Shown piece after piece: positions 3,328-26,900 of a stretch of DNA of 26,900 nucleotides. The notes under the pieces are model-generated. The model was given only the letters and a program-made list of their open reading frames with translations. It had not been told where the DNA came from and ran no database searches. The DNA is taken from IMG/VR virus record IMGVR_UViG_3300031999_000170, positions 1 through 26,900 of that record; one strand, 5' to 3'. Within the stretch, counting starts at the first letter, position 1, and every line of letters starts with the position of its first letter. The position numbers and the translations under genes were made by a program. This stretch comes from a virus.

Positions 3328-4017
3328 CTACGGGTCCGTAACCGGATCGCGGCTGTTGCCGCGGTGCATTCGCAGACCAACGGAAGCGGTACGAGTGCGG
3401 TCTCTCGAATCGCGCAGCACATCGTGGGGACGCAGGGGCGCGAGCCCCACAGCTTTCCCGTCCGCGATGAGCTTTTCCTGCTGCTCCTGGAGCAAAGCCT
3501 CAGACTCGCGCAACTGAGCATTCCCTTCTTCGCGGTAGTGCTCGTTGCGCCTTTTGGCGAGGGCCTTGGGCATGCGCGCCAAGGTCATCCCGCCCACTTT
3601 GATTAACTCGCCCTGTTCGTCGCGGCACGGTTCGAACCCGCGCATCCCGCGGCGTTTCACCACCGTGTCCGACAGCAACTTGTGCGTCATATCCGGGCGC
3701 GGATCGCCGTCGCGCGCCACGGCTTCTGCTATCGGATCCGGAGCCGACCATGGCTCGATCAGGTCCTTGGCCGCCGCCTCGCGCGCCTCGATCTGCCTGG
3801 CGAACCCGTCCCTCACACTGACCCGATGGCCTTTCTTGTGCGGTTTCGCGTTCTCTTCGTCAATGCCCTCGTCGGTGAGTCGATGCGGAATCGCGTGCTC
3901 GAGGTGTGTCGGCACGGGTTTCCCCTGCACGGTCCTCGCCTTCACGGGCGTCCCTTTCGGGTCTGCCGTGGGGCCGGCTTCAACCGGCCGCTTTGTCTTC
4001 TTCATCCCCATCCTCAC
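3328..4017 (-). CDS. Unknown late-operon protein with in-frame palindromic element
   Basis: The protein has up to 229 residues and opens V-R-M-G-M-K-K at GTG 4017, overlapping the scaffold stop by four bases; ATG 4011 or 4005 are alternatives. It is charged and mostly helical, with an Arg/Lys-rich N-terminus and a coiled-coil-like stretch (EGNAQLRESEALLQEQQEKL). Residues about 9-16 (RPVEAGPT) come from a palindromic repeat at 3968-3990 inserted in frame. The product could be a minor head or scaffold-associated protein, judged only from its place between scaffold and decoration genes. No family is recognised. Confidence 0.55.
   Translation of the reverse strand: MRMGMKKTKRPVEAGPTADPKGTPVKARTVQGKPVPTHLEHAIPHRLTDEGIDEENAKPHKKGHRVSVRDGFARQIEAREAAAKDLIEPWSAPDPIAEAVARDGDPRPDMTHKLLSDTVVKRRGMRGFEPCRDEQGELIKVGGMTLARMPKALAKRRNEHYREEGNAQLRESEALLQEQQEKLIADGKAVGLAPLRPHDVLRDSRDRTRTASVGLRMHRGNSRDPVTDP
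3968..3990. repeat. PAEAGPT palindromic element, copy 1
   Basis: The stem GGCCGG / CCGGCC (3972-3977, 3984-3989) closes the loop CTTCAA, preceded by GTGGG. It lies inside the gene at 3328-4017 and is translated on the minus strand as RPVEAGPT. The loop differs by one base from the CTTCAG core of the other copies. Confidence 0.75.
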
Positions 4018-4922
4018 TGCCTGGGCAGGCCGGAGATTCTTACCCCGGCTTTCGCCCGTTTCCGGTAGGCCTCCTCGGAGACCCCCAGCCGGCCCGCGAT
4101 CCTCTTCTGGAGTGGGCTCAGATCATCGCTGGGCTCCGCCTCACGCGCCGGTCGGCGGCCTCGACTGCCGGCCTGCGCCCGTACCCGCTCGATGCGATCG
4201 TCTTCATTCTCGTGTTCATCGGCTGCGGCCCGGTCGTCGCTGTAGTCCCGGTCGTCGTCCTGGTCGCCCTCTGGTTCCCGCCGGCGGTCGCCGGAGGGTG
4301 CCTTCTTGCCCGTTCCCAGGTCCTTCTCCGCCAACTCCGCCGCCAGTTCCATCAGCATCCCCGACTCCCGAATCCCCTTGTTCCCCTTGAGCTGCTCGTA
4401 CCGCTTCGCGGTCGCCGCGAAGAACTCGCTCTTCTCATCGCCCAGCTCCGGAAACCTGCCCAGCAGCCGGGCATCCTGCGTGATCTGCCCGCGCGTCCGC
4501 TCGATCTTCTGGTCGATCTCCTCGACTCGGGCGTACCCGAGCTTCCGGAGGACTCTGTCGAGCCCCTTCGCCCCGTCGCTGGTGAGCGCTTCGATGACGT
4601 CGATCTCCTCCTCCGCCGGCGCGCCCGTGGCACCGGCTTCAGCCGGTGGATGCTCCTGCCTCTGGCCGGCGCGTGCCACCTCGCTCCAGTGCCGTTCCGA
4701 GGCCTCGAGTTCCCCGATCCGGCCCCTGGCTTGCCTCAGTTCCCGGCGCAGCGCCTTCGCTTCGCGCGTCGCTGCATCGCCCTCGGGTTTCTTCTCCTTG
4801 TCCGGTTCGCCCTCGCCGGCCGCTTCGACCTCCACCACCGCTTCAGGTTCACCCTCCGCGCCGGGTTCCGCCAGGAAAGTCACCTCTCCCGCGTCGCGGT
4901 CTGATTCCTTGTCCTTCGCCAC
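4014..4922 (-). CDS. Putative scaffolding protein
   Basis: This 302-residue protein starts at GTG 4922 (MAKDKESDRD) behind GGAGG. The N-terminal third is very acidic and disordered. A helical coiled-coil block follows (AKALRRELRQARGRIGELEASERHW, about 55-80), then mixed helices, then an acidic/basic C-terminus ending in a basic helix-turn-helix-like segment (RIAGRLGVSEEAYRKRAKAGVR). Acidic helical proteins of about 300 residues between portal and coat genes are usually scaffolds that leave the procapsid; P22 gp8 has 303 residues. A copy of the palindromic element (4627-4648) adds PPAEAGATGAP. The scaffold role is inferred from length, composition and position. Confidence 0.68.
   Translation of the reverse strand: MAKDKESDRDAGEVTFLAEPGAEGEPEAVVEVEAAGEGEPDKEKKPEGDAATREAKALRRELRQARGRIGELEASERHWSEVARAGQRQEHPPAEAGATGAPAEEEIDVIEALTSDGAKGLDRVLRKLGYARVEEIDQKIERTRGQITQDARLLGRFPELGDEKSEFFAATAKRYEQLKGNKGIRESGMLMELAAELAEKDLGTGKKAPSGDRRREPEGDQDDDRDYSDDRAAADEHENEDDRIERVRAQAGSRGRRPAREAEPSDDLSPLQKRIAGRLGVSEEAYRKRAKAGVRISGLPRQ
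4627..4648. repeat. PAEAGPT palindromic element, copy 2
   Basis: The stem CACCGGC / GCCGGTG (4631-4637, 4642-4648) closes the tetraloop TTCA. The outer stem pair differs from copies 4 and 5 on both arms (CA...TG), so pairing is kept by compensating changes. It lies inside the scaffold candidate gene and is read as PAEAGAT. Confidence 0.75.
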
Positions 4923-4931
4923 TAGCGCCTC

Positions 4932-5276
4932 CTACAGTCCTTTGGCCCGTCCGTAACGGGTCGCTCGATACAGATCCAGCCGCTTGCGTTCGTATGCGTC
5001 CGAGCACGCGCCGCACAGGAGCTGGTAGATCCCATCCTTCGGCTGCACGAACATCCTCACGTTCTCCCCCGGCGTGTCCCGCCGCAGGTCCTCCCAGGTT
5101 CGCCGGCAGGGTCCCTGGCATCCCGGCGGCGCACACCCGGCCAGCACGGCCAGCGCCGCCCGGTGCCAGTAGTAGCAGTCCCAGCAAGGCGCCACCGCCG
5201 GCGGTCCGACAAATTCCCGCGGGTCCCGCCACTTCGAGCAGAATCGGCATCGCAGCCGCGGCCGTAGAATAGGCAT
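4932..5276 (-). CDS. Cysteine-rich zinc-binding phage protein
   Basis: This 114-residue protein starts at ATG 5276 (MPILRPRLRCRFCSKW). It has several metal-type cysteine clusters: CRFC (10-13), CWDC, C-x4-C-x3-C (CAPPGCQGPC) and CGAC near the C-terminus, followed by the conserved-looking SDAYERKRLDLYRATRYG. This layout suggests two or more structural zinc sites and no catalytic centre. Similar small cysteine-rich proteins lie between portal and scaffold genes in other phage genomes, with unknown function. The stop lies ten bases before the scaffold start. Confidence 0.65.
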   Translation of the reverse strand: MPILRPRLRCRFCSKWRDPREFVGPPAVAPCWDCYYWHRAALAVLAGCAPPGCQGPCRRTWEDLRRDTPGENVRMFVQPKDGIYQLLCGACSDAYERKRLDLYRATRYGRAKGL

Positions 5277-5316
5277 CCTTGCCTGTTCCCTACGTCGGCA
5301 GCGCCTGAACCACGCT

Positions 5317-5484
5317 TCACCGCCGCTTCCGGCTGGCCTTCGTGTGCTCCGGCAACGATTTCATGCTCCTGCCGTGCATCTTCTCGACCACCTCGCGGGC
5401 GTAACCCTTCCTCATCCCGCTGTCCTTCGCCTTCCCGGCGACCACCGCGTGCGCCAACCGCACCTCAGCTCTCGACCTGGGCAT
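5317..5484 (-). CDS. Small basic phage protein
   Basis: This 55-residue protein starts MPRSRAEVRLAHAVVAGKAK at ATG 5484, overlapping the previous gene by 20 bases; the longer frame to 5619 is a shadow. It is basic and helical, with SGMRKGYAREVVEKMHGR in the middle and a KASRKRR tail. Short proteins with an 'S-(R/K)-A-x-x-R-x-A-x-A-V-A-x-GKAK' start are common in phage head modules and have no known role. The gene call rests on coding composition and tight packing. Confidence 0.55.
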   Translation of the reverse strand: MPRSRAEVRLAHAVVAGKAKDSGMRKGYAREVVEKMHGRSMKSLPEHTKASRKRR

Positions 5485-5743
5485 GGTGCTTCCTCTCTTT
5501 CCTCTGCTCTCGCGCCCGAATCTCCTGCGCGAGTATCCCTGGCACTTCGAGCACCCGCCGCAGCGCCGCCAACTGGCCCTGCGCGCGGTACAGTTCGGGC
5601 CCGGCGTCCTGGATCTCAAGCTGCGCCTGCGCCTGCGTAGCCATCTCGGCGATCCGGGCCCCGATCATCTGCCACCCGCGCGTCTCAAGGGTCTGGCGCA
5701 GGTGCTCGAGATCCACCCGGTCGGCGGGTATCCGGATCCTCAT
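5465..5743 (-). CDS. Small helical protein coupled to the portal gene
   Basis: This 92-residue protein starts MRIRIPADRVDLEHLRQTLE at ATG 5743. The ATG overlaps the portal stop in an ATGA, so the two are probably translationally coupled. It is Gln/Ala/Glu-rich and mostly alpha-helical, with a likely coiled coil over residues 25-75. It has no Cys and no membrane segment. A small helical protein after the portal could be a portal- or scaffold-associated factor; this is inference from position only. Confidence 0.6.
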   Translation of the reverse strand: MRIRIPADRVDLEHLRQTLETRGWQMIGARIAEMATQAQAQLEIQDAGPELYRAQGQLAALRRVLEVPGILAQEIRAREQRKERKHHAQVES

Positions 5744-7905
5744 GGCTCCCCTTCCGAGCCGCGACCGTCAGGGAGCGGTTGCCCGCCGCCGCCGCCTTGC
5801 ATCCCCGCCAGCAGACCTTGCATCTGCTCGGGCGGCACCGCCGCCCCGGGGACCTGCCCCGGCCCCGCCACGCCCTTCAGCGACTCCACCAGGCGCTCCA
5901 TCAGGGCGCCCATCAACTTTTTCTGTTGCCACTGCTGCATATGATCGAGCGTGTGGCTGACCATCGTGTGGAAAGCGCCCTCGTCGCGCTGCGGATCCAC
6001 TCGCGCCTCGCGTACCTGCTTGTTGTGGTCGAGCAGGTGCAACTCGTCGTTATCCTCCGGGTGGACCGGGATCTCCTCGCCCTGGAGCGCCATCGTCCAC
6101 TCTTCCCGGGGGTTCTTGGGCAGACCCATATCCGGGGGCTCCGGGATCAGGTCGCAGAACCGCTCGTCGCCAAACGCCCGATGTACCTCCTGGGTGATCC
6201 GGTAGAGCGCTCGCGGGTTCTGGGCCACCAGCGGGTTCTGCAGGTCGAGCTGGTACAGCGCCAGTTGGCGATCTCGCTTCGCCTCGCGCGCCCAGTAACT
6301 CGTGGCGAACCGGATGTCGAAGTCGTACCGGCCGCCGCGTTCCTGCTGGGTCATTTGCGCCCCGCCGTTTTTGGTCTCGAACAACCCGCCAGCGTCCTCC
6401 TCGGTCACCCGGAAAAACACCGAGTCCGGCGCGTACATCGAATCCAGCAGCCAGACCCGCGCCGCGATCGCCGCCCAATCCTCGCGCAGGCAGGCGATGT
6501 CGAGACTGGCCCTGATGTTGCCCTCTTCCAGCAGCGCCAGGGTCTGGCGCGCCGTCCTGGGAGCGTTCGGGCGATCGCTCGCCCGGCCCAGGTTCATTTC
6601 TGTCCGACCCGTCAGCCGCTCAGCATGGGCCAGATAAGTTTGCACCGCCATGACCGGGTACTCGAGGTTCGCGCGGACCTCGATCGCCCTGACACTGGAC
6701 GGGTCCGCAGTCGGAATCGCCTGTCCCGGTTCGTAGGGTGTGGTTTCCGGGTCGTAGCCCTCCCCTGGTCGATAGAAGAGTACCGGCCAGACCGAAAGTT
6801 GGCCAGCTTCCGTCCCCAGATTGTGGGCCACTGACGCCCCCGCCTCGACCTTCTCGAGGAGTTCACCAAAGGATGGGCACCAGTAACTTCCATCGCGGAC
6901 TAACGCGCTCTCGACGAACGGCCGGCGTTGCGCCATCAGCGGGTACATCTCGGCCAGGTCCTGGACCCCGATCACCCGGTGCAGATCGGGCTGGTACCGC
7001 ACCACCAGTTCACTCTCGAACCGCTCGCGGCCGCCCAAGTTCCCCGCGCTAGCGTCCTTCCGGCCTTTCAACCGCCGCCACTTCCCGTACCATTCCCAGA
7101 TACGCACGGCGCCGCGCGCGCTCAAGTTACTCTCGCGGTTCACTCCCTCCGCGAGGTCCAACTCGCGCTTCAACTCGTCGCCCTGCCAGTCCCGGTCCCT
7201 GCGCTGCTCGCCCAGCTTGACCAGCTCCTCGAACAGGTCCTCAATGCCCTGGTACAGGACGCCGTCCGCCCGCAGGAGCGCGTCCGGAGTGTCCTGGTAC
7301 TTGCGGAGCACGAAACTGAAATCGTGAATGGTCTCCGCGTCCTCCCCCGGCACGATCAAGTCGTCTGGTTGCAGCGGCTCGAACCCTGGCCCTTCGTAAT
7401 CCAGCAACTCGACTTCCCCGCCATCCTCAGTAGGCGCCCAGAAAGTCTCACGCCGCCACGGCGCGTAAGCGTGCGCCCGGCCGAAGAGGATTCTACGAAA
7501 ACTGAACGCACAGGCCTTGTGCCGAATCCGCATCGACTGGAACAGCCGCCACCACGTGTATAGGGCAACCTTGCGCACCTGACGCTGGTCAGAGGGCCCC
7601 GTGGGTTTGGCGACGATCTCCGAATCGTCGCCAAACAGCGCCGCAAACTCGTTCGCCCACTCGCTGAAGACATGCCACTGGGTCATGGGCACGCGAAAGT
7701 TCGGGACATCCTCCTCGCCGGCGATCGGCTCGTCGGTCAAGTCGCGCCAGCGGCGCAGGTATCGCCGGAACCGCTCGATCCGCGCGTCGTGATCGCTCCG
7801 GGCCGCGTGGTAGTCTTCCTGGATCCGGTCCGCCAACCGCCCCAACTCGTTTCGCGAGAAGGCGAGTTGCCGCCCATGCGCCCGTCGAATCGAGGACCCG
7901 TTCAT
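5740..7905 (-). CDS. Portal protein
   Basis: This 721-residue protein starts MNGSSIRRAHGRQLAFSRNE at ATG 7905. Portal proteins form the dodecameric ring through which DNA enters the capsid and to which tail parts attach. It shows an N-terminal helical segment with LADRIQEDYHAARSDHD, a long body rich in Trp/Tyr/Arg, a basic region that could face DNA, and a Gln/Gly/Pro-rich tail (QVPGAAVPPEQMQGLLAGMQ). Its length is close to the P22 portal (725 aa). It follows TerL and precedes the scaffold candidate and coat genes, the canonical order. No clear signature motif could be checked, so the call rests on size, composition and order. Confidence 0.8.
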   Translation of the reverse strand: MNGSSIRRAHGRQLAFSRNELGRLADRIQEDYHAARSDHDARIERFRRYLRRWRDLTDEPIAGEEDVPNFRVPMTQWHVFSEWANEFAALFGDDSEIVAKPTGPSDQRQVRKVALYTWWRLFQSMRIRHKACAFSFRRILFGRAHAYAPWRRETFWAPTEDGGEVELLDYEGPGFEPLQPDDLIVPGEDAETIHDFSFVLRKYQDTPDALLRADGVLYQGIEDLFEELVKLGEQRRDRDWQGDELKRELDLAEGVNRESNLSARGAVRIWEWYGKWRRLKGRKDASAGNLGGRERFESELVVRYQPDLHRVIGVQDLAEMYPLMAQRRPFVESALVRDGSYWCPSFGELLEKVEAGASVAHNLGTEAGQLSVWPVLFYRPGEGYDPETTPYEPGQAIPTADPSSVRAIEVRANLEYPVMAVQTYLAHAERLTGRTEMNLGRASDRPNAPRTARQTLALLEEGNIRASLDIACLREDWAAIAARVWLLDSMYAPDSVFFRVTEEDAGGLFETKNGGAQMTQQERGGRYDFDIRFATSYWAREAKRDRQLALYQLDLQNPLVAQNPRALYRITQEVHRAFGDERFCDLIPEPPDMGLPKNPREEWTMALQGEEIPVHPEDNDELHLLDHNKQVREARVDPQRDEGAFHTMVSHTLDHMQQWQQKKLMGALMERLVESLKGVAGPGQVPGAAVPPEQMQGLLAGMQGGGGGQPLPDGRGSEGEP

Positions 7906-7915
7906 TCCGTGTCGC

Positions 7916-8185
7916 CTACTTGGCCTGAGTCTCGAATGGACCGGTCTTCTTCAGCGCCTCAAGTTGCCGTTCGATCGCCCCGTCCACTACCCTGTCCAGC
8001 ACCTCGACGGGGATGCCCTCGAACGAGGGATCCTCACGCAGGGCCTCGATCACCGTGCTCTTGACCACGTCTTTCTTGACCGCCCCGGTGCCGCCGCCGA
8101 ACACGCGCTCGACCGCTTTGATCAGCTCGGTAAGTCCCGGCAGAAGTCCGGCCATGAGACCGATAATTCGCAGAAACAGTTGCAT
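7916..8185 (-). CDS. Small protein with one hydrophobic helix, holin-like
   Basis: This 89-residue protein is best started at ATG 8185, because GGAGAGG lies five bases upstream; the frame is open to 8203. The first 20 residues (MQLFLRIIGLMAGLLPGLTE) form one hydrophobic helix, followed by a charged soluble part with VKKDVVKSTVIEALREDPSFEG. One membrane span with a soluble tail fits a class III holin-like, anchor or regulator protein, but it sits in the packaging module and not beside a lysin. It ends ten bases before the portal start. The hydrophobic helix is seen; the role is open. Confidence 0.5.
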   Translation of the reverse strand: MQLFLRIIGLMAGLLPGLTELIKAVERVFGGGTGAVKKDVVKSTVIEALREDPSFEGIPVEVLDRVVDGAIERQLEALKKTGPFETQAK

Positions 8186-8199
8186 CGTTTCCTCTCCTG

Positions 8200-8613
8200 T
8201 CACTTGTTCTTGTCCGGCGCCCGCCCGCGCGGCATGACCTCCAACCGGCGCGGCCCGGTCAGACTCTCCTCGATGTACTTCGGACGCTCCGGCAGCGGCA
8301 CGTGCTCCTCGACCGCGCTGAGTGGCACGGAGGACAGTTCCAGGTACAGTTTCTTCCCCAGCCGGTCAAACAGCTTCCCGGCGTCCTTGATCGTGCGCTT
8401 GTTCTGGCAGGCGCCAACCACCGCCACGTACCGTGTGCCGTCGAATGTCGCCGACGCCGTGGCCTTCAGCCCCTTCGCCCACCCCAGAATCGTTTCGCGG
8501 ATGGCCGCTGCCCGCTTCCCTAACGGCGCCGCCGCCGCGATCCGCTTTTGGAGGTCGCCTAATTCGTCGATCAACTCCGCCGCTGTCGGCGTTTTCAAAG
8601 GTTCCTGTTTCAT
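8200..8613 (-). CDS. Unknown packaging-module protein
   Basis: This 137-residue protein starts MKQEPLKTPTAAELIDELGD at ATG 8613, with GGAG upstream and the previous stop only three bases away. It is helical at the start, with a conserved-looking centre RYVAVVGACQNKRTIKDAGK and KLFDRLGKKLYLELSSVPL, and a basic C-terminus. It has no recognised motif. It lies between the cysteine-motif protein and the holin-like gene. Its role is not known; position suggests a head or packaging accessory. Confidence 0.55.
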   Translation of the reverse strand: MKQEPLKTPTAAELIDELGDLQKRIAAAAPLGKRAAAIRETILGWAKGLKATASATFDGTRYVAVVGACQNKRTIKDAGKLFDRLGKKLYLELSSVPLSAVEEHVPLPERPKYIEESLTGPRRLEVMPRGRAPDKNK

Positions 8614-8616
8614 CTG

Positions 8617-9213
8617 CTACGCTCCTGCGCCCATCACCTGAAGCTGCATCGAGGTTGGCTTGGCGATTTGTTCCCGATCCACGAAGTGGCCCCGGTAGTA
8701 GTCCCCGGTGGGGTAGACCGCGTACGGCTTCATCTCCAGGTAGGCTCGCCCCAAGCTGTTCTCGATCCGATAGACGGCGTGAAAGAAGTTCCCGCGATCG
8801 ACGTGCGGAAAACCATCCACGCCGGCCGCGCGTGCCATCCGAACCCAGCGCGCCAACAGCGGCAGGCAGTCCCGCCACTCCATCTCGCACAAGAAGTGCA
8901 GGCGAAACACCTGGAACTCGAAATCATTGAGCAGTCGCCGGGCGATCAGGACGAAATCCGCGCAAAACTCGGCGTCTTTGTTCCCGAAGTTGAATCCCAT
9001 GCGCCGGCAGACCTCGGCCCTACTGGCGCGGTACAACCAGAGTCCCACCGCCTGAGCGTACCGATACCGGCCCAGCGCTCCCCGGAACGCCGACCGCAGC
9101 GCGCACCCGCACAGGACGGCCTCGGTCCGGCCTTGATAAGTCCCCAGACCGTGGCACTGGGCGCACCCGCGCCGTGCGTTCCCCAGCGCGACCCCTCGCA
9201 TCTCGTCCGTCAT
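8617..9213 (-). CDS. Terminase-linked protein with a CxxCxGxG-type zinc motif
   Basis: This 198-residue protein starts MTDEMRGVALGNARRG at ATG 9213, overlapping the TerL stop as ATGA; the much longer frame to 10902 is a shadow of TerL. It has a DnaJ-like zinc motif CAQCHGLGTY with a second pair LCGC 15 residues on. A long helical, aromatic-rich domain follows (DFVLIARRLLNDFEFQVFRLHFLCEMEWRDCLPLLARW) and the protein ends YYRGHFVDREQ. The zinc knuckle suggests nucleic-acid or protein binding. Coupling to TerL suggests a role in packaging or its control. No characterised family is recognised. Confidence 0.68.
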   Translation of the reverse strand: MTDEMRGVALGNARRGCAQCHGLGTYQGRTEAVLCGCALRSAFRGALGRYRYAQAVGLWLYRASRAEVCRRMGFNFGNKDAEFCADFVLIARRLLNDFEFQVFRLHFLCEMEWRDCLPLLARWVRMARAAGVDGFPHVDRGNFFHAVYRIENSLGRAYLEMKPYAVYPTGDYYRGHFVDREQIAKPTSMQLQVMGAGA

Positions 9214-10973: not shown

Positions 10974-10992
10974 TACTGTACTGTCGGCGCCC

Positions 10993-11021
10993 GTGGGATA
11001 GGCTTCAGCCTGTCGCCGTCC
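10993..11021. repeat. PAEAGPT palindromic element, copy 3
   Basis: The stem GATAGGC / GCCTGTC (10997-11003, 11008-11014; one G-T pair) closes a TTCA loop and is flanked by GTGG and GCCGTCC like the other copies. It spans the sigma gene end and the gap before TerL. Here the frame differs: the element supplies the C-terminal codons and the TGA stop of the sigma gene. Confidence 0.7.
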
Positions 11022-11547
11022 GGGAGTATCCGGCCTGCTCGAGCGCTCGGCGCATACGCACCAACATCCGCTTGTTGAGTTGGCAGGCTCGGCTCTCGTT
11101 CACCCCGAGCGCCCTGCCTGTAGCCTTCAGGAATAGACCCTCGCCGTAGTAGAGCCGCGCCAACTCCCGATCCCGCGCCGGCAACGTCGCCAACGCCCTG
11201 GCGACTAGCGCGCGTTCTTTCTGCCGATCCAGGTCATCATCCACGGTCGGGTACTCAACTGCCCCCGACGACCCAACACCGATCCGGGGTGCGAGTTCCT
11301 CAGCGTAGTGCGACCGCCGGTAGTGATCCCACACGGCTCCACGCACCCGCCGCCAGGCGTAGCACGGGAAAGGGACGCCACGCGCCGCATCGTACGTCTC
11401 CGCCACCTGTAGGAGGGCCACCAAGGCCCAGGCCTCCAGATCGTCCAACTCAATCCACGGCGGCATGCGCCGCTTGACGCTCAGCGCGACCAACCGGGCC
11501 AGCCCACGGTACCGGACTACCAGTTCGTTACGCTCGTCGAGGTCCAC
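11005..11547 (-). CDS. RNA polymerase sigma factor, sigma-70 family (FliA/SigF-like)
   Basis: This 180-residue protein starts at GTG 11547 (MDLDERNELVVRYRGLARLV), overlapping the TerS gene by 20 bases. Region 2 (about 10-80) has the core-binding and -10 recognition pattern: ALSVKRRMPPWIELDDLEAW, then VAETYDAARGVPFPCYAWRR and VRGAVWDHYRR, as in FliA/SigF-type factors. Region 4 (about 115-170) has ALATLPARDRELARLYYGEG and a helix-turn-helix ATGRALGVNESRACQLNKRM. The linker is short and region 1.1 is absent. It probably redirects host polymerase to phage promoters, perhaps late ones. Its place between TerS and TerL is unusual. The last residues (SRTATG) come from the palindromic element. Confidence 0.88.
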   Translation of the reverse strand: MDLDERNELVVRYRGLARLVALSVKRRMPPWIELDDLEAWALVALLQVAETYDAARGVPFPCYAWRRVRGAVWDHYRRSHYAEELAPRIGVGSSGAVEYPTVDDDLDRQKERALVARALATLPARDRELARLYYGEGLFLKATGRALGVNESRACQLNKRMLVRMRRALEQAGYSRTATG

Positions 11548-17960: not shown

Positions 17961-17965
17961 GGACC

Positions 17966-18434: not shown

Positions 18435-18995
18435 TCATCGCCTCCCAAACACTCGCCGCGCGAAATCGTCGCGCTGCGCGCTCGTGATCTGCGCGTAGAT
18501 CACCGTGGACTGGATGTTGGCATGCCCGAGCCAGTCCTGCACCCGCCGAATGTCGCTGTCCGGGCGCCCCATCAGCCAAGTCGCCACCGAGTGCTTCAGC
18601 ACGTGGAAGTGCCGCTTCTCCGGTGCCAGGCCCGCCGCGGCGCCGTAGCGCTTCATCAGCCGGTCGAGTTGGTAGCGGGAGATTCCCCGTCTCCGCCGGG
18701 ACGGGAACAGTGGGCCCGGATCGTATCCCCGCACCCTCAACCACGCCCGCAGCGCGCGCAACTCCTCATCGGATAGTAGGTGCTCCCCGCTCCGGGATCC
18801 CTTCAACCGGTGGACGTAGATCCGGCCGACCTTCAGCCTGACGTCGGCCACCTGGAGCAGCCCCACCTCGCTCGCCCGGAGGCCCCGCCAGAACGCCACC
18901 GTCCAGATCGCCCGGTCTCGGAGGCCCTTGATCGCCGAAAACAGCGCCCGTAACTCCTCTTCTGTCAGGTACTTAGGAGTCACGCCGAACTCCAC
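18435..18995 (-). CDS. Tyrosine recombinase (phage integrase), catalytic domain only
   Basis: This 186-residue protein starts MEFGVTPKYLTEEELRALFS at GTG 18995; an in-frame stop lies just upstream, so no longer version exists. It shows the catalytic set of tyrosine recombinases: R40 (GLRASEV), K65 (HRLKGSRSG), H131 in HVLKHS, H158 (WLGHANIQST) and nucleophile Y167 (VIYAQIT). The usual second Arg (H-x-x-R) is Lys134. The core-binding N-terminal domain of full integrases (about 300+ aa) is missing. It may integrate the phage or resolve DNA; loss of activity cannot be excluded. Confidence 0.88.
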   Translation of the reverse strand: MEFGVTPKYLTEEELRALFSAIKGLRDRAIWTVAFWRGLRASEVGLLQVADVRLKVGRIYVHRLKGSRSGEHLLSDEELRALRAWLRVRGYDPGPLFPSRRRRGISRYQLDRLMKRYGAAAGLAPEKRHFHVLKHSVATWLMGRPDSDIRRVQDWLGHANIQSTVIYAQITSAQRDDFARRVFGRR

Positions 18996-19098: not shown

Positions 19099-19221
19099 GT
19101 AAAACGTGGGAATCCTGGGTAATCGCCGGTAGGCGCCGGCGGCCCCAGGCTCCGGAGTGGGCCAGCGAGGAGATGCGCCAGCCGTCCCAAGGCCGCCTAC
19201 TCTTGGGTGGGTAGAACCACG

Positions 19222-19446: not shown

Positions 19447-19664
19447 CGGTCGGCCTCCACTTCGAGCCAATGCAGTCGGCCCTCCAGCTCCGCAACCTTG
19501 CCGGCGAGCTCATCCAGCTTTCCCGCCATGGCCAGCGCCTCTTCGACGCCGTGGTCCTCGGTCTCGGCGTCTCCCCGTCCACACGCCTCCACCAGAAGCG
19601 CGTCCAGGAGCTCCTTCATCGTCGCAACACTCCACTGCTCCCCATCGTAGATGCTGACCCACAT
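19443..19664 (-). CDS. Small coiled-coil protein
   Basis: This 73-residue protein starts MWVSIYDGEQWSVATMKELL at ATG 19664, in a TGATG overlap; GTG 19667 is an alternative start. The C-terminal half (AMAGKLDELAGKVAELEGRL, then HWLEVEADR) has leucines every seven residues, typical of a coiled coil. The protein is acidic. It may dimerise or partner with the neighbouring proteins; function unknown. Confidence 0.55.
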   Translation of the reverse strand: MWVSIYDGEQWSVATMKELLDALLVEACGRGDAETEDHGVEEALAMAGKLDELAGKVAELEGRLHWLEVEADR

Positions 19665-19921
19665 CACACCCTCCCACTCTGGCTCTGGGCAACCAGCTCG
19701 TCGTCGTCACCCTGCGGTTGGTCCTTCGAGGGCGCCGGCGGATCGCTGGCCAGCATCGATATCCACAAGCACACCAGCGCCAGGACCACGAGCAGCGCCG
19801 CCAGCACACCACCCGCCCGCAACCAAGGGAATCGAGGGCGAGGGGCCTCCACTCCCCCGCCCTCGAGGTAGCGCAGGAACTCCTCCTGCGCCCTGCGATC
19901 GTACTCGCCGAACTCCGTCAC
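19664..19921 (-). CDS. Small single-span membrane protein
   Basis: This 85-residue protein starts at GTG 19921 (VTEFGEYDRRAQEEFLRYLE), overlapping the nuclease stop; the frame to 19963 is longer but lacks support. A charged N-terminus is followed by a strong membrane span (GGVLAALLVVLALVCLWISM) and a Pro/Asp/Gln-rich tail (SDPPAPSKDQPQGDDDE). The N-terminus is likely cytoplasmic. A phage membrane protein here could act in host takeover, exclusion or lysis; nothing seen decides. Confidence 0.58.
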   Translation of the reverse strand: MTEFGEYDRRAQEEFLRYLEGGGVEAPRPRFPWLRAGGVLAALLVVLALVCLWISMLASDPPAPSKDQPQGDDDELVAQSQSGRV

Positions 19922-20712
19922 TCCTTCACCGTCCCGCCGAATTCGGCTTCGCACGCCCGCCAAAACGAGCAGTACTTGCGCCCGCAGATCCGAGGATGCG
20001 CTCGATTCGGCATGTAGAGTCCCGCCCGGATGACGTCGCGCGCCAGTGGATACATCGTGTCCACGAAGCGCAGATCGGACTCTTCCACCTCGAATTCGAG
20101 TTGGACCAGCTTGGGCGTCTTGTTCTTGACCAACACGTCGATCCGCCCGCGCCCCGAGGCCTCGGGCAGCAGCCGCCGATAAGTGGCCACCTGAAATACT
20201 TGATCCGGATCCACGCCCGAGGGTGTGTTCCTTACGCTCTTTAGGTCAATGATCGTGCCGTGCTGGTCCACCAGGTCCACGAACCCACGCACATGGACCC
20301 CGCCGATCTCGCCCCAGACTTCGTGCTCGGTCAGTTGCGGCTGCACCTGCGGCGCCACCTGAGTCATCCAGATGTTCACCAGCGCCTCGCCCGTGGCTTC
20401 CAACTCCACCGCACTCTCGTCGTCGCGTAACTGCACCTTCTCTGACGCGAGTTCGCCGCCGAACGCCAACTGGAAACTCTTCTGAGCTTCAGCCAGCGGC
20501 AGGTCGCGCCTGGACAGTTTCTTGAATTGCATGGCGATCTTGGCGACCTTGTGAACGGCCCGGCCAAGCGCCAAAGCGCCGCCGCCGACGTCCGGCAGCC
20601 CCCGAACGTATTTGAAGTACCACTTCGCCGCGCAACCGATCAGCGTCTTGGTCTGGCTGGGAGAGAGCACCTCCCCCAACCCACCGAGCTGCTCTACAGT
20701 TGCGGTCGCCAT
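19918..20712 (-). CDS. PD-(D/E)XK nuclease, Cas4/RecB-like, with probable Fe-S cluster
   Basis: This 264-residue protein starts MATATVEQLGGLGEVLSPSQ at ATG 20712, overlapping the previous gene by 19 bases. It shows the RecB/Cas4 pattern: C27 (LIGCAAKWYFKYVRG), H54, D146 (GFVDLVDQ), D156-x-K158 (IIDLKS) and Q-x3-Y (QVATYRR, about 174-178). The C-terminus has C243-x4-C248-x5-C254, which with C27 fits the Fe-S 'iron staple' of AddB/Cas4-type exonucleases. It likely processes DNA ends for recombination or replication. The preceding gene may encode a partner. It lies in no CRISPR locus. Confidence 0.85.
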   Translation of the reverse strand: MATATVEQLGGLGEVLSPSQTKTLIGCAAKWYFKYVRGLPDVGGGALALGRAVHKVAKIAMQFKKLSRRDLPLAEAQKSFQLAFGGELASEKVQLRDDESAVELEATGEALVNIWMTQVAPQVQPQLTEHEVWGEIGGVHVRGFVDLVDQHGTIIDLKSVRNTPSGVDPDQVFQVATYRRLLPEASGRGRIDVLVKNKTPKLVQLEFEVEESDLRFVDTMYPLARDVIRAGLYMPNRAHPRICGRKYCSFWRACEAEFGGTVKE

Positions 20713-21314
20713 GTGAGGTACCCCGCATCACCCGCCCGGATGAACATCGTGACGGCTAGTTTCTGGACCGTCTCCTCGCTGAACCGCACCGAGGAATCAT
20801 TGGCCGCCGCCCACTTCTCGGCGGTCTTGACCGCCCGCACGGACGCGACCAAGAACTCCGTCATCGCCGCTTCAAAGTCCGCCTTCGTGGGGATGCTTGT
20901 GGGGCCGGCTTCAGCCGGCCGTCCGTCTTTCCCGTTCCCACTTGCGCCGACCCCCTTCCCGTGGGTACCATTGTCTCCGGGATAACCTCCCACTTCCCGT
21001 CCACCGGGCCCGGCGGCAGCCAGCTTCTGGGGCCCGGTGGCGGGGGTCGTGAAGTCCACGGTCCACTTCAACCCACGCCGGTTGCCGTCTCGCACTTCTT
21101 CCTTGCAGACCGAGAACGGCTCTCCCGGCCGGATCCTCAACGTCTCGATTTGCTCCGCCACCTCCGGCTCGAGGTAAGCGATCCGGTTGTCAGTCAGACT
21201 CACCATCACCTGATCGCCGTAGCGGCCTTCGACCCGCTTCGGTTCCGGGAACCGCGGATCGATCGCCACCACTTGCGGAACATTCGTCTCAAACCGCACT
21301 TTCTCACGTGCCAT
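20694..21314 (-). CDS. Unknown protein coupled to the nuclease
   Basis: This 206-residue protein starts MAREKVRFETNVPQVVAIDP at ATG 21314, chosen because GGAGGTGA lies just upstream. The N-terminal part is beta-rich (QVMVSLTDNRIAYLEPEVAE, then IRPGEPFSVCKEEVRDGNRR) and could be an OB-like or other DNA-binding barrel. A Gly/Pro-rich linker contains the palindromic element (GRPAEAGPT). The C-terminus is helical (KADFEAAMTEFLVASVRAVK). Overlap with the nuclease suggests a DNA-metabolism partner; single-strand binding is one guess. Confidence 0.6.
   Translation of the reverse strand: MAREKVRFETNVPQVVAIDPRFPEPKRVEGRYGDQVMVSLTDNRIAYLEPEVAEQIETLRIRPGEPFSVCKEEVRDGNRRGLKWTVDFTTPATGPQKLAAAGPGGREVGGYPGDNGTHGKGVGASGNGKDGRPAEAGPTSIPTKADFEAAMTEFLVASVRAVKTAEKWAAANDSSVRFSEETVQKLAVTMFIRAGDAGYLTWRPQL
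20899..20925. repeat. PAEAGPT palindromic element, copy 4
   Basis: The stem GGCCGGC / GCCGGCC (20903-20909, 20914-20920) closes a TTCA loop; GTGG and GTCCG flank it. The 27-base unit is identical to copy 5, about 5 kb away in another gene. It lies in the linker of the nuclease-coupled protein and is read as GRPAEAGPT. Confidence 0.85.
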
Positions 21315-21335
21315 TTCACTCACCTCCACAAAAAC

Positions 21336-21852
21336 TCACGCTGCCGCCGCCCACGCCACCATGCGCGCCGCGAACTGATCGTGCAGCACCCCGGCCACCT
21401 GCGCTCGTTGCCGCGCTTCGAGCGGCGCCAGCTCGCGCTCGATGAGCGCCGCCAGGCGCTCGCCCACTCGCCGCAGATCCGGCACCTCGCGCACCGGCTC
21501 GAGCGCCCGCCGCGCTATCGGCCCCAACTCCAGCGCCCATTCCCAACTCTCTGCCCAAACCCGCGCCAGCTCCCGCCACTCGGCCGCTTTCCGGTCGTAC
21601 TCCCAGAGCACGTACAGGTACTGCGAGTTTTTTTCCCCCGCTGCCGTCGCTGCCCGCCCCTTCGAGCAGTACCGCTCGCGCCGGCAGATCGCTTTCGGCG
21701 ATCTCGCTGCCCGGGCGCACGAAGCGGCCCTCGAACTCGAAACCGTTGACCGCGCTCGGCGCCACCCGCCCGAGCATTTTGGCGAACGTCACTGCGCTTC
21801 GCCGTGTCGCCGTCCTGGGAATCCGAACCATCCGTCCGCTGTCGTTTTCCAT
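21336..21852 (-). pseudogene. Unknown protein split by a frame change at an A7 run
   Basis: One frame from ATG 21852 (MENDSGRMVRIPRTATRRSA, then FAKMLGRV and GFEFEGRFVRPGSEI) looks coding up to GAGSDGSGGK. After it composition turns shadow-like, while the +1 frame becomes convincing (NSQYLYVLWEYDRKAAEWRE and WAESWEWALELGPIARRALE) and ends at 21336. The switch falls on a 7-base A run on the minus strand (T run 21628-21634). With six A bases the two halves join exactly (GGK-NSQYLYVL). A sequencing indel, a real mutation or programmed frameshifting (+1 or -2) would all fit. Upstream ATG 21861 is an alternative start. Function not recognised. Confidence 0.55.
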
Positions 21853-21862
21853 GGCGATCATC

Positions 21863-21934
21863 AGATTATCATGCTCGCGTGAGCTTGTCAAGAAAAATCT
21901 TGCTAACGCGAGCAATTCGTGGTAACCTGTTGAC
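21863..21934. promoter_or_regulatory. Divergent promoter with paired operators
   Basis: Two related imperfect palindromes lie in inverted orientation: GCTCGCGTGAGC (21873-21884) and GCTAACGCGAGC (21902-21913), 29 bases centre to centre. On the minus strand TTGACA (21891-21886) precedes TAATCT (21868-21863, spacer 17) or GATAAT (21870-21865, spacer 15). On the plus strand TTGCTA (21900-21905) and TAACCT (21923-21928) are weak boxes ending six bases before ATG 21935. Confidence 0.55.
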
Positions 21935-22141
21935 ATGGCAAGGAAACGCGGCAAGGATCCCCACGCTCAGGCGCTCAACAGCAAGCGTAACGCGAAGATG
22001 TCGCCGGAGCGCCGCAGTGAGGTTGCCCGACACGCTGCGACTGCCCGCTGGGCGGCCATGTCACCCGAGGAACGTTCCGCGGCCGCCAAACGCGCCGCTC
22101 AGACCCGCCGCAAGCGCCGCCCCAAGAAAGCCTCGGCTTGA
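21935..22141 (+). CDS. Small basic protein, possible regulator
   Basis: This 68-residue protein starts MARKRGKDPHAQALNSKRNA at ATG 21935, with no Shine-Dalgarno sequence. It is very basic and helical, with KMSPERRSEVARHAATARWA and a repeat-like MSPEERSAAAKRAAQTRRKR. This 'M-S-P-E-x-R-x-x-x-A-x-x-A-A-x-x-RW' pattern occurs in many small phage proteins of unknown role. It is the only plus-strand gene here and is transcribed divergently from the operator region, so it might be a small DNA-binding regulator. Its 3' end overlaps the convergent gene at 22099-22245. Confidence 0.6.
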   Translation: MARKRGKDPHAQALNSKRNAKMSPERRSEVARHAATARWAAMSPEERSAAAKRAAQTRRKRRPKKASA

Positions 22142-22245
22142 CGATTGCGTCTGCGCCGGTGAGCGCCGAAGTCCTCGGCCAACTCGAAGTCCTCGTCCTC
22201 CCAGTGACAGAGTTCGTCCTCGAGGAAGCAGTGCTCAACCCTCAT
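22099..22245 (-). CDS. Very small acidic protein
   Basis: This 48-residue frame starts MRVEHCFLEDELCHWEDEDF at ATG 22245, overlapping the previous stop by 11 bases (ATGAGGGTTGA). An acidic first half with H-C and C-H pairs (HCFLEDELCHW) leads to a basic tail (GAHRRRRNRQ). Coupling to the upstream gene and the odd but ordered composition support it; overlap with the plus-strand gene weakens it. Confidence 0.4.
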   Translation of the reverse strand: MRVEHCFLEDELCHWEDEDFELAEDFGAHRRRRNRQAEAFLGRRLRRV

Positions 22246-22456
22246 CGGCGACCTCGACCGGGCGCCCGTGCCGCCGCCGCCCATCGTGCCGCTCGTCGCA
22301 CACGCCCTGGCGCACGAAGTCACGGTCCACCTGGTCCAGGACGCGCTTCTCCATTTCCAGCAGCGCCACGCGCAGGCGCAGGCTCAGCCAGACGTTGAAT
22401 CCCTGGGAGGCCAGCGCCACCACGCTCACCACCACCGCAATCAATCCGTCGCTCAT
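22235..22456 (-). CDS. Small membrane protein with coiled coil (spanin or holin accessory candidate)
   Basis: This 73-residue protein starts MSDGLIAVVVSVVALASQGF at ATG 22456, in an ATGA overlap with the large polyvalent gene. One membrane span (about 5-25) is followed by a helical, heptad-like part (LSLRLRVALLEMEKRVLDQV) and a His/Arg-rich tail with one Cys. This is the usual design of small phage lysis accessory proteins, but no lysin lies nearby. Coupling to the polyvalent protein may mean they act together at the membrane. Confidence 0.55.
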   Translation of the reverse strand: MSDGLIAVVVSVVALASQGFNVWLSLRLRVALLEMEKRVLDQVDRDFVRQGVCDERHDGRRRHGRPVEVADEG

Positions 22457-25400
22457 GGCTTCTGGCCCCCCTTCACGAGATCTCGAATCGCCGCCCCGTG
22501 GTGTTGCCGCAGTACCGACAGTTCCTCCGGCGACTTCGTTTGCAACCCGCTGAGCACCTTCAGGATCAGGACGCCGCGCACCTTACCGCGTTCCTCGGCA
22601 TTCGCCAGCTGCCACACGTCCAGGGCCTGATCCAACCCGAGACTCTTGAACCCGCGCGTGAATCGGTCCGTGGTCGCCTGGCGCAGGACTCGCACCAGGT
22701 CCTCTCGTGTGAGGTTACCCGCCTTCATCTGCTCCGCGATGATCGGCCCCGCGGGTTTGTGTTGCCGCAATGCCTGCGCGACGTCTGCCCTGGCCCGCGC
22801 CCGCGCGTAGCTCTCCTTCGGCTGCGCTCCGGCTGGGCGGCGTTCTCCGAGTAGTTCGGCTTGGAGCGCCTCCGCCGGCGTCTGCGTGACGTAACTCGGT
22901 GCCGCGGTGATCCCGATCATGGGCAGGACCTGCATGGCGACGCCCGCCCCGCGTTGCCGCTCGCGTTGAATGTTCTGGAAGGCGTAGGGCCGGATCCCCG
23001 TGAAGTACTTCAGGCTGTCGAGGACCTGCTTGTAGGCCGGGTCATGCGGATCATGGATCATCGTGCCCCAGAAGTCCTCGTTCGTCAAGACGTCGGCAGT
23101 CCGCCCGACCAGGGGGTTCAGTTTGTTCCGCGCGGCTTGCAACGGGTGCGCCTGGCCGAGCCCCAATCCGAGCCAGTGCACCTGATCCTTCATGTAGCCC
23201 GGCCAACTGAACCGTTCTGGGCGACCCTGCTCGTCGTAGTTGCCAGTGCGCGGAAAGAAGTAGTCTTTGCGATCGTCCGGGAGCCGGCCCCACCGCAGGT
23301 AGGCGTAGACGGCTCCCATGAACCCGATCAGCATCGGCAGTGCCAGCACGTACGCCATGCGATGCGTGAACTCCGGCCTCCCCGGCGCCCCGAACTCAGG
23401 CGGCGGTCCACCGCCCGCCGGCGGCTCTCCGCCGGCCGGCGGCGCCGGGCGCCTACCGACGATCCTCCGTCCGATGCGCCCGGCCTGCCGGGCGTAGTCG
23501 ATGTAGCCGCCTCCGAGTTCGCGGAACGTGCCGAGGTTCCACCCCAAACTCTGCACGCTGATCATCCCGAGGTCTTTCACCGCGCGGTTCCAGAACAGGT
23601 CGTCGTAGACGAGTTGGCCCATCCGGTTGTCCACCGAATCCCAGCAGCGGGCGAAGACTTGGCGGACCTCCTCACGGGTGGCGTTCTGCGGCAGCCGTGC
23701 GAGTTCGAACTGCGCCATGTCGGCGAACACCCCGAGTTTCTGCCGAGGCACAACCCACTCCATGATCGGCCAGGCCGCGGTCTCCATGACCGCCGGCAGC
23801 GCCGTGAGAAGTACTCCTGCCGGGTTCTTCGCGGTCCAGAAATCCGCCAGCCGTTCCCGGAACTTGGTGCGGTAAACCGGATCCATGCGCGCGCGCCCGC
23901 CGCCGGCCAGCATCGCTTCGATGATCTTGACGGTCTCCGGGTCCTGGTTCGTGGCCGCGAACCACTCCCGGATGACCTTGTTGCCCTTCAGGACATTCTG
24001 CACCGGCGAGATCGGTACTTCGAGTACCCGCTGGACCGCCTTCAGCGGCATCCCTGCCGCGAGGTACTTGAGCGCGATCGCCAGCTTGGACGTCGCCGCA
24101 TCTACCGAAGTGAACCCGAGGTGGAACCCGCTGAAGCTCAACGACCACTGGACCATCAGGTTCGCGCTGCCCAAGAGGGGTCTGAACCAGCCTTTCTGCC
24201 GCAGGCCCGGGCTGAGGAAGTTCTTCAGCACGACCACCGCGGACTCCGGCATAAACCACTTGCCCTTCAGGACGAACCCGCCCAGCGGGAAGGTCGCGCT
24301 GCCCTCCGCCAACTCCATGCCGTAGCGAATCTCCTTCAGCCGGCGCAGTTCCGGGTGCGCGTCGAGAAACTCCTCGAACCAGACGAACGTCGCCGGCGCC
24401 ACTCGCTCGAAGGCCTCCGGCGCGTGGACATACGCCGCCACCAGGTTGGCCATCTTCTCGGCCTTGCGGCGGACGTACCGCCGGAAGTGCGTCGGCGCCT
24501 CCTCGCCCAGCCGCAGGTCCGCGAGCAGGCGCAACTCCTCGCGGTAGGGCTTCGTCTTGACCAATTGCTCGGAAAGCTTGTAGCGATGGTCGAGCACGTG
24601 CCCGATCTCGTGGACCAGGACGCTCTCCGGCCCGGCGAACCGCGTCTTCACTTCGCCCTTGCCCGGCTGCGCGTACCCCCACGCCGGCCCGCGCAAGGTG
24701 GCCAGCCGCTCGTGGGTAATCCCCAGGCTCTTGGCGAATTCCTCGAGCCCGCGCATCATCTCCGCATCGAACGCCTCACGAACCTTGATCTCGGGCGGGC
24801 CCCACACCGTTCCGATCGGGTCGGGTGTCTCGGTCCACCCGAACGGCGGCCGCCCGCCCAGCGCCGGCACGAACCGCGCCAGGCCCAGGTCCTTCATCTC
24901 CCGGATGAAGCGGTGCGCCAGCAAGAAGCGGTCCATCTCGCGCAACTTGAGCAACACCAGGTCCACCGGATTCCAGCTCACCGGTTCGAGCCCGGCTTCG
25001 AGCCCCTCGCGGAAGAACAGGTACGTGCGTTTCTTCAGGAACGCTTTCGGCCCTTCAAGCGGCCGCCGCCCGAAAATCGCTCGCCAGATTTTGGTTCGCT
25101 CTTCCGTGCTCCGCCGTTTCCAGATGTGCGGGAAATAGGTCTCGTAGTACGCGGTGAGCTTCCCCTCGCCCAACCCCTGCACCTCCCGGCGATGGTTGTC
25201 CAGCAGGTTGCGGAACAATCCCGCGATCGCGTCCAGGTCAGTGTTTTCCTGGGCCTGGCCCTCCTCCATCCGGTCGATGAACTGTTCGACAAATTCGTGC
25301 GACTGCCCCCGGAAAAACTTCCGCGCCTTGCGCAGCGTGGCTTCGGCCTGGTCGAAAGCTCGGGCGGTTTCCGCGCCGTGCGCACGCAGGCTTAAAGCGC

Positions 25401-26900
25401 TCTGGCGCGCCATAACGTCCAGACTCGCGGGCGCAAAGGTCTTTCGGACGTCCTGCCTGAACTCCCGCACCGCGTCCGCCGCCGCCCGCAGACCCTCGAG
25501 CGTGCGGCTCGGCTCCCCGGTCACGGGTCCGCTGACGGACGCCACCGGCGCCGCCGCTGCCGCCGGCGCCGGGGTAATCATCCGCATGAGCAGCGGTTCG
25601 TCTCCGAACAACCCCTCCTCCGGCAATGCATCGAACTTCGGATCGAACAACTCGCCCTGCGGCGGCTCGGGGATTTCGCTGAACAGACCGGTCTGGGTGG
25701 TGCCGGCCGCCTTCCTCAATTTCCGCCGCGCGTTGTTGCGCGTCAACGCGGTGTTGAACTCCGCGGTCAGTCGCTCGGCTTCGATTCGCCGCTGCTGTTC
25801 GGCTTCGGCTTCTCGTTGCTTTCCGGTGTCGAAGTCGGGGAAGAGCTCCCGCTGGAGAGTGGGGCCGGCTTCAGCCGGCCGTCCGGAAACATCTTGTCGA
25901 ACGTCTCGTCGAACTTCCCCTCCTGGTAGGCCTCGAGCAGCTTCTCCAGGTTGCTCACTGAGTCTTTGGACATCTGCCAACACCCTCCTAAAATCCGGCG
26001 CCGCCCGGCGAAAAACCGCCAGTGCTTCGCGCCCATGCGCCGCCACAATGTACTCCAAGTAGCGCCTGATGAGGTATCGCGCCTGCTCCCGATCGAGCCC
26101 CAGCAGCCGCCACCCCACAGGTCCCTCGGCCAGGTGGGCCCCGAGTTCCGCAGCCAGGATCTCCGTGTCACGTGGATATCCGCGGCTGATCAGGTTGTCT
26201 GTGGCGGCATCAGCGAGTGGATCGGTGAGGAAGTACACCGCACCGTCCTCACCCATCAGGTTCCTGACCTCCGGCGAGATCTGGAACTGTTGTGCATGGT
26301 GAACCTCATGGCGTGCCGCCCTGACGGCCGTAGGGCCGGCCTGGACAACAACCACATGTCCCGTCTCCGCACCTGCCGCTTCGAGGACGTCGGCGAACGC
26401 GTTGGCTGCCGAGTCGCGGACTGTTCGCAGGCGTCTGATGACTCGAGTAACGCGGTACGCCTCCATCAACCAACCGCCCAAAGGACCGTGCACCTGCTCG
26501 GCCTCCTGGAGAACCAGCATCGCCTGCTGGTTGACCAAGACGAGGGTCGGATCCTGCGTTCCACCCTGGATTAACCGCGCCTCGGCGTCCGCACCCATCT
26601 CTCGACCCGTGTCATATCCCCGCCAGGGTTTCAACGGCTTCCCGCGCAAGTGCCAGGTTTCCCCCCGCTGCACCGTCCGCTCGAACGCCGCCGGGAGTTG
26701 CTCCCGCATGAAGACCACCGGCTCCCCGGCGCCGGCGGCCTTCGCCTTGCCCTTCCGCTCCGCGCGCTCGATCTCTTCGCGTTTCTCGATAAACGCCGCG
26801 CGAAACGCTTCCTCCGGAGTCAACGCCGTGAAGAACGACGCCGGCGCAGCCGGACGTCCGTTCGCCTCTTCGCCGGCGAACGCGCGAAACACTTTCGCCG
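22453..26900 (-). CDS. Large polyvalent-type phage protein with two HExxH motifs, partial
   Basis: At least 1479 residues are visible and the frame is open to the right edge, so the true start lies outside. Two zinc-protease-type motifs are seen: HEVHH (about residue 195, followed by AQQFQISPEVRNL) and HEIGH in ESVLVHEIGHVLDHRYKL (about residue 760). The middle and end hold long helical regions, and about residues 1180-1210 include a likely membrane-active helix (AYVLALPMLIGFMGAVYAYL). The C-terminal part (KLNPLVGRTADVLTNEDFWG) resembles the end of large polyvalent proteins of phages and mobile elements. Such proteins may be injected with DNA. Palindromic element copy 5 adds SGRPAEAGPTLQ, and a Pro/Gly-rich linker lies at 23395-23450. 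Confidence 0.75.
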   Translation of the reverse strand, partial: AKVFRAFAGEEANGRPAAPASFFTALTPEEAFRAAFIEKREEIERAERKGKAKAAGAGEPVVFMREQLPAAFERTVQRGETWHLRGKPLKPWRGYDTGREMGADAEARLIQGGTQDPTLVLVNQQAMLVLQEAEQVHGPLGGWLMEAYRVTRVIRRLRTVRDSAANAFADVLEAAGAETGHVVVVQAGPTAVRAARHEVHHAQQFQISPEVRNLMGEDGAVYFLTDPLADAATDNLISRGYPRDTEILAAELGAHLAEGPVGWRLLGLDREQARYLIRRYLEYIVAAHGREALAVFRRAAPDFRRVLADVQRLSEQPGEAARGLPGGEVRRDVRQDVSGRPAEAGPTLQRELFPDFDTGKQREAEAEQQRRIEAERLTAEFNTALTRNNARRKLRKAAGTTQTGLFSEIPEPPQGELFDPKFDALPEEGLFGDEPLLMRMITPAPAAAAAPVASVSGPVTGEPSRTLEGLRAAADAVREFRQDVRKTFAPASLDVMARQSALSLRAHGAETARAFDQAEATLRKARKFFRGQSHEFVEQFIDRMEEGQAQENTDLDAIAGLFRNLLDNHRREVQGLGEGKLTAYYETYFPHIWKRRSTEERTKIWRAIFGRRPLEGPKAFLKKRTYLFFREGLEAGLEPVSWNPVDLVLLKLREMDRFLLAHRFIREMKDLGLARFVPALGGRPPFGWTETPDPIGTVWGPPEIKVREAFDAEMMRGLEEFAKSLGITHERLATLRGPAWGYAQPGKGEVKTRFAGPESVLVHEIGHVLDHRYKLSEQLVKTKPYREELRLLADLRLGEEAPTHFRRYVRRKAEKMANLVAAYVHAPEAFERVAPATFVWFEEFLDAHPELRRLKEIRYGMELAEGSATFPLGGFVLKGKWFMPESAVVVLKNFLSPGLRQKGWFRPLLGSANLMVQWSLSFSGFHLGFTSVDAATSKLAIALKYLAAGMPLKAVQRVLEVPISPVQNVLKGNKVIREWFAATNQDPETVKIIEAMLAGGGRARMDPVYRTKFRERLADFWTAKNPAGVLLTALPAVMETAAWPIMEWVVPRQKLGVFADMAQFELARLPQNATREEVRQVFARCWDSVDNRMGQLVYDDLFWNRAVKDLGMISVQSLGWNLGTFRELGGGYIDYARQAGRIGRRIVGRRPAPPAGGEPPAGGGPPPEFGAPGRPEFTHRMAYVLALPMLIGFMGAVYAYLRWGRLPDDRKDYFFPRTGNYDEQGRPERFSWPGYMKDQVHWLGLGLGQAHPLQAARNKLNPLVGRTADVLTNEDFWGTMIHDPHDPAYKQVLDSLKYFTGIRPYAFQNIQRERQRGAGVAMQVLPMIGITAAPSYVTQTPAEALQAELLGERRPAGAQPKESYARARARADVAQALRQHKPAGPIIAEQMKAGNLTREDLVRVLRQATTDRFTRGFKSLGLDQALDVWQLANAEERGKVRGVLILKVLSGLQTKSPEELSVLRQHHGAAIRDLVKGGQKP
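25859..25885. repeat. PAEAGPT palindromic element, copy 5
   Basis: The stem GGCCGGC / GCCGGCC (25863-25869, 25874-25880) closes a TTCA loop, identical over 27 bases to copy 4. It is inserted in frame in the large polyvalent protein at about residue 340, in a charged, probably flexible region, and is read as GRPAEAGPT. Confidence 0.85.

Follow-up and report, generated by a model that had tools for sequence, protein, structure and literature searches.

REPs of the GTAG kind consist of a tetranucleotide and a short palindrome with a 4-nt loop, and they adjoin genes for REP-associated tyrosine transposases (RAYTs) in loci called REPtrons (PMC3733652). In 2013, such REPs were described inside open reading frames, where they lie in the coding frame or supply the stop codon, and these intragenic REPs were already likened to the RPEs of Rickettsia; GTGG versions were recorded for GTAG-20 of Opitutus terrae (all PMC3733652). 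The RPEs are palindromic repeats tolerated in the coding frames of unrelated genes, with RPE-4 and RPE-6 tied to a CGTC tag and not to GTAG or GTGG (PMC3733652). In REPINs, two inverted REPs make up one unit, and a REP standing alone is regarded as a remnant that is not mobile (PMC3116915). Here, we describe REPs located in phage genes, a setting for which our searches of the open-access literature for papers on REPs or RAYTs and phages found no report.

The DNA analysed (the window) is an IMG/VR record of 26,900 nt, and its REP copies all lie in the left and right arms. A sequence-only reading of the window had reported five copies of one hairpin, and a pattern scan (GTGG, a 7-bp stem and a TTCA loop) recovered all five at the starts given there, every one on the plus strand:

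3968..3989, plus strand: REP copy 1, GTGGGGCCGGCTTCAACCGGCC, near the N-terminus of ORF 3328-4017 (minus strand), peptide RPVEAGPT
4627..4648, plus strand: REP copy 2, GTGGCACCGGCTTCAGCCGGTG, inside ORF 4014-4922 (minus strand), peptide PPAEAGAT
10993..11014, plus strand: REP copy 3, GTGGGATAGGCTTCAGCCTGTC, providing the TGA stop of the sigma-factor gene
20899..20920, plus strand: REP copy 4, GTGGGGCCGGCTTCAGCCGGCC, inside ORF 20694-21329 (minus strand), peptide RPAEAGPT
25859..25880, plus strand: REP copy 5, a 22-mer identical to copy 4 (GTGGGGCCGGCTTCAGCCGGCC), at the joint of the small-ORF and giant-ORF frames

The conserved unit is 22 nt long, GTGG followed by an 18-nt palindrome; the 27 bases assigned to it earlier include 5 nt that are common to copies 4 and 5 only. 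When folded as single-stranded DNA, all copies form hairpins. Pairing is generally kept between copies, as had been claimed, except that copy 1 has C.A at the top of the stem (T.G on the opposite strand, all other pairs being kept) and copy 3 has one T.G pair. As a sign of selection at the RNA level, such wobble pairs point both ways: one change suits the mRNA strand better, and two suit the opposite strand. None of the five copies has an inverted partner, and so the window holds singlets, unlike the two-REP units of REPINs (PMC3116915). The arms of the window are transcribed leftwards, and thus each plus-strand copy is antisense to the gene that it touches.

The genes concerned are as follows:

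3328..4017, minus strand: carrier of copy 1
4014..4922, minus strand: carrier of copy 2, helical and with a coiled-coil-like region
11005..11547, minus strand: RNA polymerase sigma factor gene (PF04545, PF04542, phrog_351), ended by copy 3
20694..21329, minus strand: carrier of copy 4
22453..26892, minus strand: giant ORF, carrier of copy 5; its relatives run to 2,897 and 3,020 codons stop to stop
25767-25973, minus strand: small ORF that lies within the giant ORF but is read in a different frame, with the ribosome site AGGAGG

The assertion that one copy ends the sigma gene is borne out, as copy 3 includes the TGA of that ORF. The copies had also been placed at linker-like spots. Structure predictions for two carrier proteins, both of low confidence (mean pLDDT 45 and 61), agree for copy 2, predicted to fall in a loop between helices (residues 88-104), and for copy 4, in a putative poorly ordered linker within residues 94-147; copy 1 lies instead near the start of its protein. 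A homolog search among the viral contigs found just one relative of the giant ORF. The window also contains an integrase gene (18435-18995, minus strand, 186 aa) that matches the catalytic part of phage integrases only; it points to a possible temperate lifestyle, and the gene is perhaps truncated.

What is the repeated unit? In a genome scan, the 22-mer shared by copies 4 and 5 had exact matches in at least 120 stretches of bacterial MAGs. Among the matches listed were Steroidobacter, Rhodocyclaceae, Thiobacillus, Sulfuritalea, Acidobacteria and Opitutia, and the 22-mers in these matches often form inverted pairs spaced a few tens of bases apart, as in REPINs (PMC3116915). The family pattern has 353 matches per strand in one Steroidobacter MAG, against 0 for a reversed control pattern. 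A RAYT gene of this same MAG (NF047646, 139.7 bits) is accompanied by six GTGG REPs inside 425 nt, three of them exactly GTGGGGCCGGCTTCAGCCGGCC, and GTAG versions of a sister unit adjoin the same gene. Close versions of the unit also lie 98-380 nt from a RAYT in a Thiobacillus MAG and 111 nt from one in a Sulfuritalea MAG. The tetranucleotide with its palindrome, the many dispersed bacterial copies and the RAYT flanked by the repeat in Steroidobacter are all features of the GTAG/GTGG superfamily. The Steroidobacter locus is a REPtron, and therefore sequence, structure and association all identify the window copies as REPs. Judged on these comparisons, the hairpins are not a new element but a REP of a known kind. 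The sequence-only reading had likened them to the Rickettsia elements as a dispersed palindrome in coding genes, and it had the kind right. The exact unit sits beside RAYT genes in bacteria, and the window units start with GTGG, not with the CGTC tag of RPE-4 and RPE-6. They share with the GTAG REPs both the intragenic copies in coding frame and the stop codon supplied by a REP, and differ in being single, in one orientation and in phage genes. Because REPs inside genes were described in 2013 and phages are not mentioned in that account (PMC3733652), only the setting appears to be new.

How widespread are these REPs among related phages? A family sample of 80 viral contigs (1.14 Mb) was gathered through a conserved 721-aa protein (ORF 5740-7905). 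REPs are restricted in it to the clade of the window, namely the window itself, contigs L172, L173/L179 and L218, and the phage of a bacterial MAG, G001, discussed below. The rest of the family gave two dissimilar matches, a rate equal to that of control tags over the 1.14 Mb, and the sisters L174/L245 (76%) hold no canonical REP. A profile search found no RAYT in the phage records. Since the REPs occur in the window clade only, a host repeat system is their most likely source.

The host in question is suggested by the terminase: when 396 Acidobacteriota genomes were sampled, its best match, at 78% identity, came from MAG G001 (Acidobacteria bacterium K_DeepCast_250m_m1_110). G001 includes two contigs, C1 and C54, that are related to the window phage. 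The same REPs occur on its chromosome, where contig C166 carries genes for dnaN, gyrB, malate dehydrogenase and isocitrate dehydrogenase, and it has the exact 22-mer, with an inverted REP partner, 3 nt past the gyrB stop. The search for the unit in candidate hosts that had been proposed earlier thus turned up exact copies in bacteria, including this acidobacterial MAG. The family pattern occurs 40 times in G001, and the 22-nt pattern was matched in only 3 of 297 sampled Acidobacteriota genomes. A RAYT profile search and a reading of the neighbourhood did not find a RAYT adjoining REPs in G001: its single RAYT-like gene is below the family cut-off (72.7 versus 80 bits), and the surrounding 6 kb that were read contain no REPs. 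In another contig of this MAG (C71; L208, 601-1923), there is an array of about 30 REPs with repeat units mostly of 45 bp and some of 34 or 37 bp. The phage contigs may have been assigned to the G001 bin by mistake; the window phage is most likely a phage of Acidobacteria that carries host-type REPs.

The REPs of the clade can be compared site by site. Site 1 has a REP in the window, L172, L218 and the G001 phage, with 36 nt missing beside it in the G001 phage, and L174 has a probable remnant there, GGC-AAAGCCGGC (equalled by a fraction of 0.008 of random windows). Site 2 has a REP in the window, L172 and the G001 phage; it is alike at 20 of 22 nt, although the proteins are only 55% identical, and its peptide reads PPAKADAT in the G001 phage and PPAEAGAT in the window. 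In L218, whose identity to the window is 90%, a remnant is left at this site (equalled by 0.007 of random windows), and the corresponding fraction for L174 is 0.27. The sigma-ending REP of site 3 is common to the window, L172 and L173, and neither L174 nor the G001 phage has it. At site 4, the window has a standard REP and L179 (~11,150) a different one with a loop ~22 nt longer, GTGGGACAGGCTTC...GAAGCCTGTC. Site 5 has a REP in the window and L179; C54 lacks it and has 15 nt to the window's 24. Site 6 lies outside the window; the REPs that L179 and C54 carry there are at the same codon and differ in three stem pairs, changed on both sides, and the C54 stem exactly matches a common REP of the presumed host G001. 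Site 7 has a REP in L179 alone. Elsewhere, the REPs of L217 (3803) and L220 (1482) lie at the same codon and are identical at 24/24 nt, with flanks ~66% identical. At 1738-1770, the window has a terminator-like intergenic hairpin, GGAGGGGCCC...GGGCCCCTCC, where the G001 phage (C1, 13069) has a REP.

The window and the G001 phage are only ~70% identical, yet both have REPs at sites 1 and 2, and sister phages have probable remnants there, so that these look like old inherited insertions. In the terminase tree, L174 groups with the window clade and the G001 phage branches outside (support 83/84), although the tree of the 721-aa protein does not settle this order. Given the terminase placement, the best reading is that the REPs of these two sites were ancestral to all and were lost in L174, and that the site 2 REP was lost a second time in L218; repeated insertion at one place is the alternative to this reading. 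The alignment of orthologs proposed earlier to find insertion sites and target duplications yielded neither a clean empty site nor a target duplication at sites 1-5 and 7 in relatives 70-98% identical; the REP-less orthologs differ in length by 3, 9 or 12 nt, and two resemble decayed REPs. Could the REPs at fixed sites in phage genes change in step with the REPs of each host? The different but fully paired stems of site 6, one of them a common REP of the presumed host, would fit such a course. We consider it unlikely, but if it is true, old REPs are replaced where they stand, through RAYT exchange or repeated insertion, and not just inherited.

The antisense orientation extends beyond the window. 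Read antisense, the unit is open in two frames, encoding PAEAGPT and RLKPVP, and has TGA in the third. A codon-usage model trained on the fetched loci was applied to the REPs of the viral contigs and gave 15 internal calls; one of these (L019) is not the canonical unit, and the remaining 14 reduce to 10 independent sites when orthologs are left out. All 10 are antisense to the gene (two-sided chance ~0.002), six in the PAEAGPT frame and four in the RLKPVP frame. With the TTCA loop, the sense frames contain no stops, and so stops do not explain the bias. We infer from this analysis that REP insertion may be strand-biased, as it is for IS200/IS605-type transposases, which use the lagging-strand template (PMC6006769), with most genes running in the direction of replication; an alternative cause is selection that acts against the sense peptides. 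In G001 and in the genome-scan matches listed, nearly all REPs are intergenic, with 3 internal among 232 classed. The claim that four copies lie within genes in one frame holds for copies 2 and 4, which are internal and in the PAEAGPT frame, and for copy 1 in that frame near the start of its gene, but not for copy 5. Its corollary, selection for a single frame, is rejected because the relatives use both the RLKPVP and PAEAGPT frames and one copy is a stop.

Copy 5 lies where the coding frame itself changes. The ORF is open there in the PAEAGPT frame, yet codon usage and codon-change counts indicate that the preceding stretch codes in the other frame (RLKPAP) and the following stretch in the PAEAGPT frame. 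In comparison with C54, synonymous to other codon changes before copy 5 number 7 to 10 in the small-ORF frame and 1 to 14 in the giant frame, and after copy 5, 2 to 14 and 8 to 8, respectively. The switch falls near 25,860-25,880 in the window and is the same in C54, which switches without a REP; therefore, the REP did not cause it. The stretch 25767-25973 is either an overlapping gene or a frameshift joint.

Taken together, the sequence comparisons make it quite probable that the window copies are REPs of a host RAYT system that were put into the genome of a temperate phage and then inherited, with decay and renewal. The placing of single-stranded REP copies in the phage genome would have happened during the stay of the phage DNA in the cell, and the mover would most likely have been a RAYT of the host that acted in trans. 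Copies that broke genes would be lost, and the survivors would be those in linkers, termini and gene ends, occupying either a stop-free antisense frame or a stop codon. From then on, the REPs would be passed on as part of the phage genome; in some lineages they would decay, and in others they would be kept or refreshed. The RAYT as mover, the time of insertion and the absence of a needed function are the inferred parts of this proposal. CC directly precedes the unit in 8 of 17 cases in the phage clade, where the units are not independent, and in 8 of 20 in G001, against 9% before any GTGG in the window; for the window copies the count is 3 of 5 (chance 0.007). Steroidobacter REPs are preceded by CT, not CC. 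In one REPtron, a GTGG guide moves cleavage to CC (PMC8266576), and the CC before the phage units is a suggestive hint that a RAYT recognises and cleaves the unit as a single strand. No transposition event was seen in the compared phage sequences. Because host REPs are often inverted pairs and singlets are held to be immobile (PMC3116915), the phage singlets would require loss of a partner.

Other explanations account for parts of these observations. The hairpins might be functional phage sequences, such as mRNA stability elements, translation signals or protein-binding sites, selected for their structure. The uniformly antisense orientation would suit such a role, as would the intact pairing at site 6 of L179 and C54 despite three stem pairs altered on both sides, and the 24 identical nt that L217 and L220 keep at one site. 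Against this, the hairpin is missing from the rest of the phage family and decays in sister phages, and single changes within sites disrupt pairing in the mRNA (copy 3 and the G001 copy of site 2). The unit is moreover a bacterial REP, and as the site 6 stem of C54 is a common REP of the presumed host, replacement fits better than gradual covariation. We consider a functional hairpin improbable. Less probable still is acquisition of REP-like sequences by recombination with host DNA, without a RAYT. It would account for the singlet copies and is compatible with the fact that no RAYT event has been shown, but no host DNA lies beside any copy, and the flanks are phage sequence that aligns with the relatives.

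It is hard to credit that PAEAGPT is an ancient conserved protein motif, with the palindrome as a by-product. The window and the G001 phage do both keep the peptide at sites 1 and 2, but the same unit is found in genes unrelated to each other, is read in two coding frames, supplies a stop codon and lies between genes in bacteria, and the DNA identity of the copies is above what the peptide demands. An ancient conserved motif had been named in advance as grounds for refuting the palindrome reading, and the DNA-level copies outside genes contradict it. Chance inverted repeats in GC-rich coding DNA, where short GC-rich palindromes are common, can practically be dismissed: order-3 Markov sequences of the same length held a mean of 0.02 copies and at most 1 (300 runs), and window copies 4 and 5 are exactly identical to abundant bacterial REPs. 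Insertion of host REPs followed by inheritance is thus the reading we prefer.

It is unusual to find REPs in the genes of phages, and at matching positions in phages that are only distantly related. Such REPs indicate that a host repeat system can mark phage genes, and such marks are a possible host tag for uncultured phages. Dated phage relatives would let the insertion, decay and replacement of REPs be followed, which is hard in bacterial chromosomes, and the strict antisense orientation offers a testable clue to the strand choice of RAYTs.
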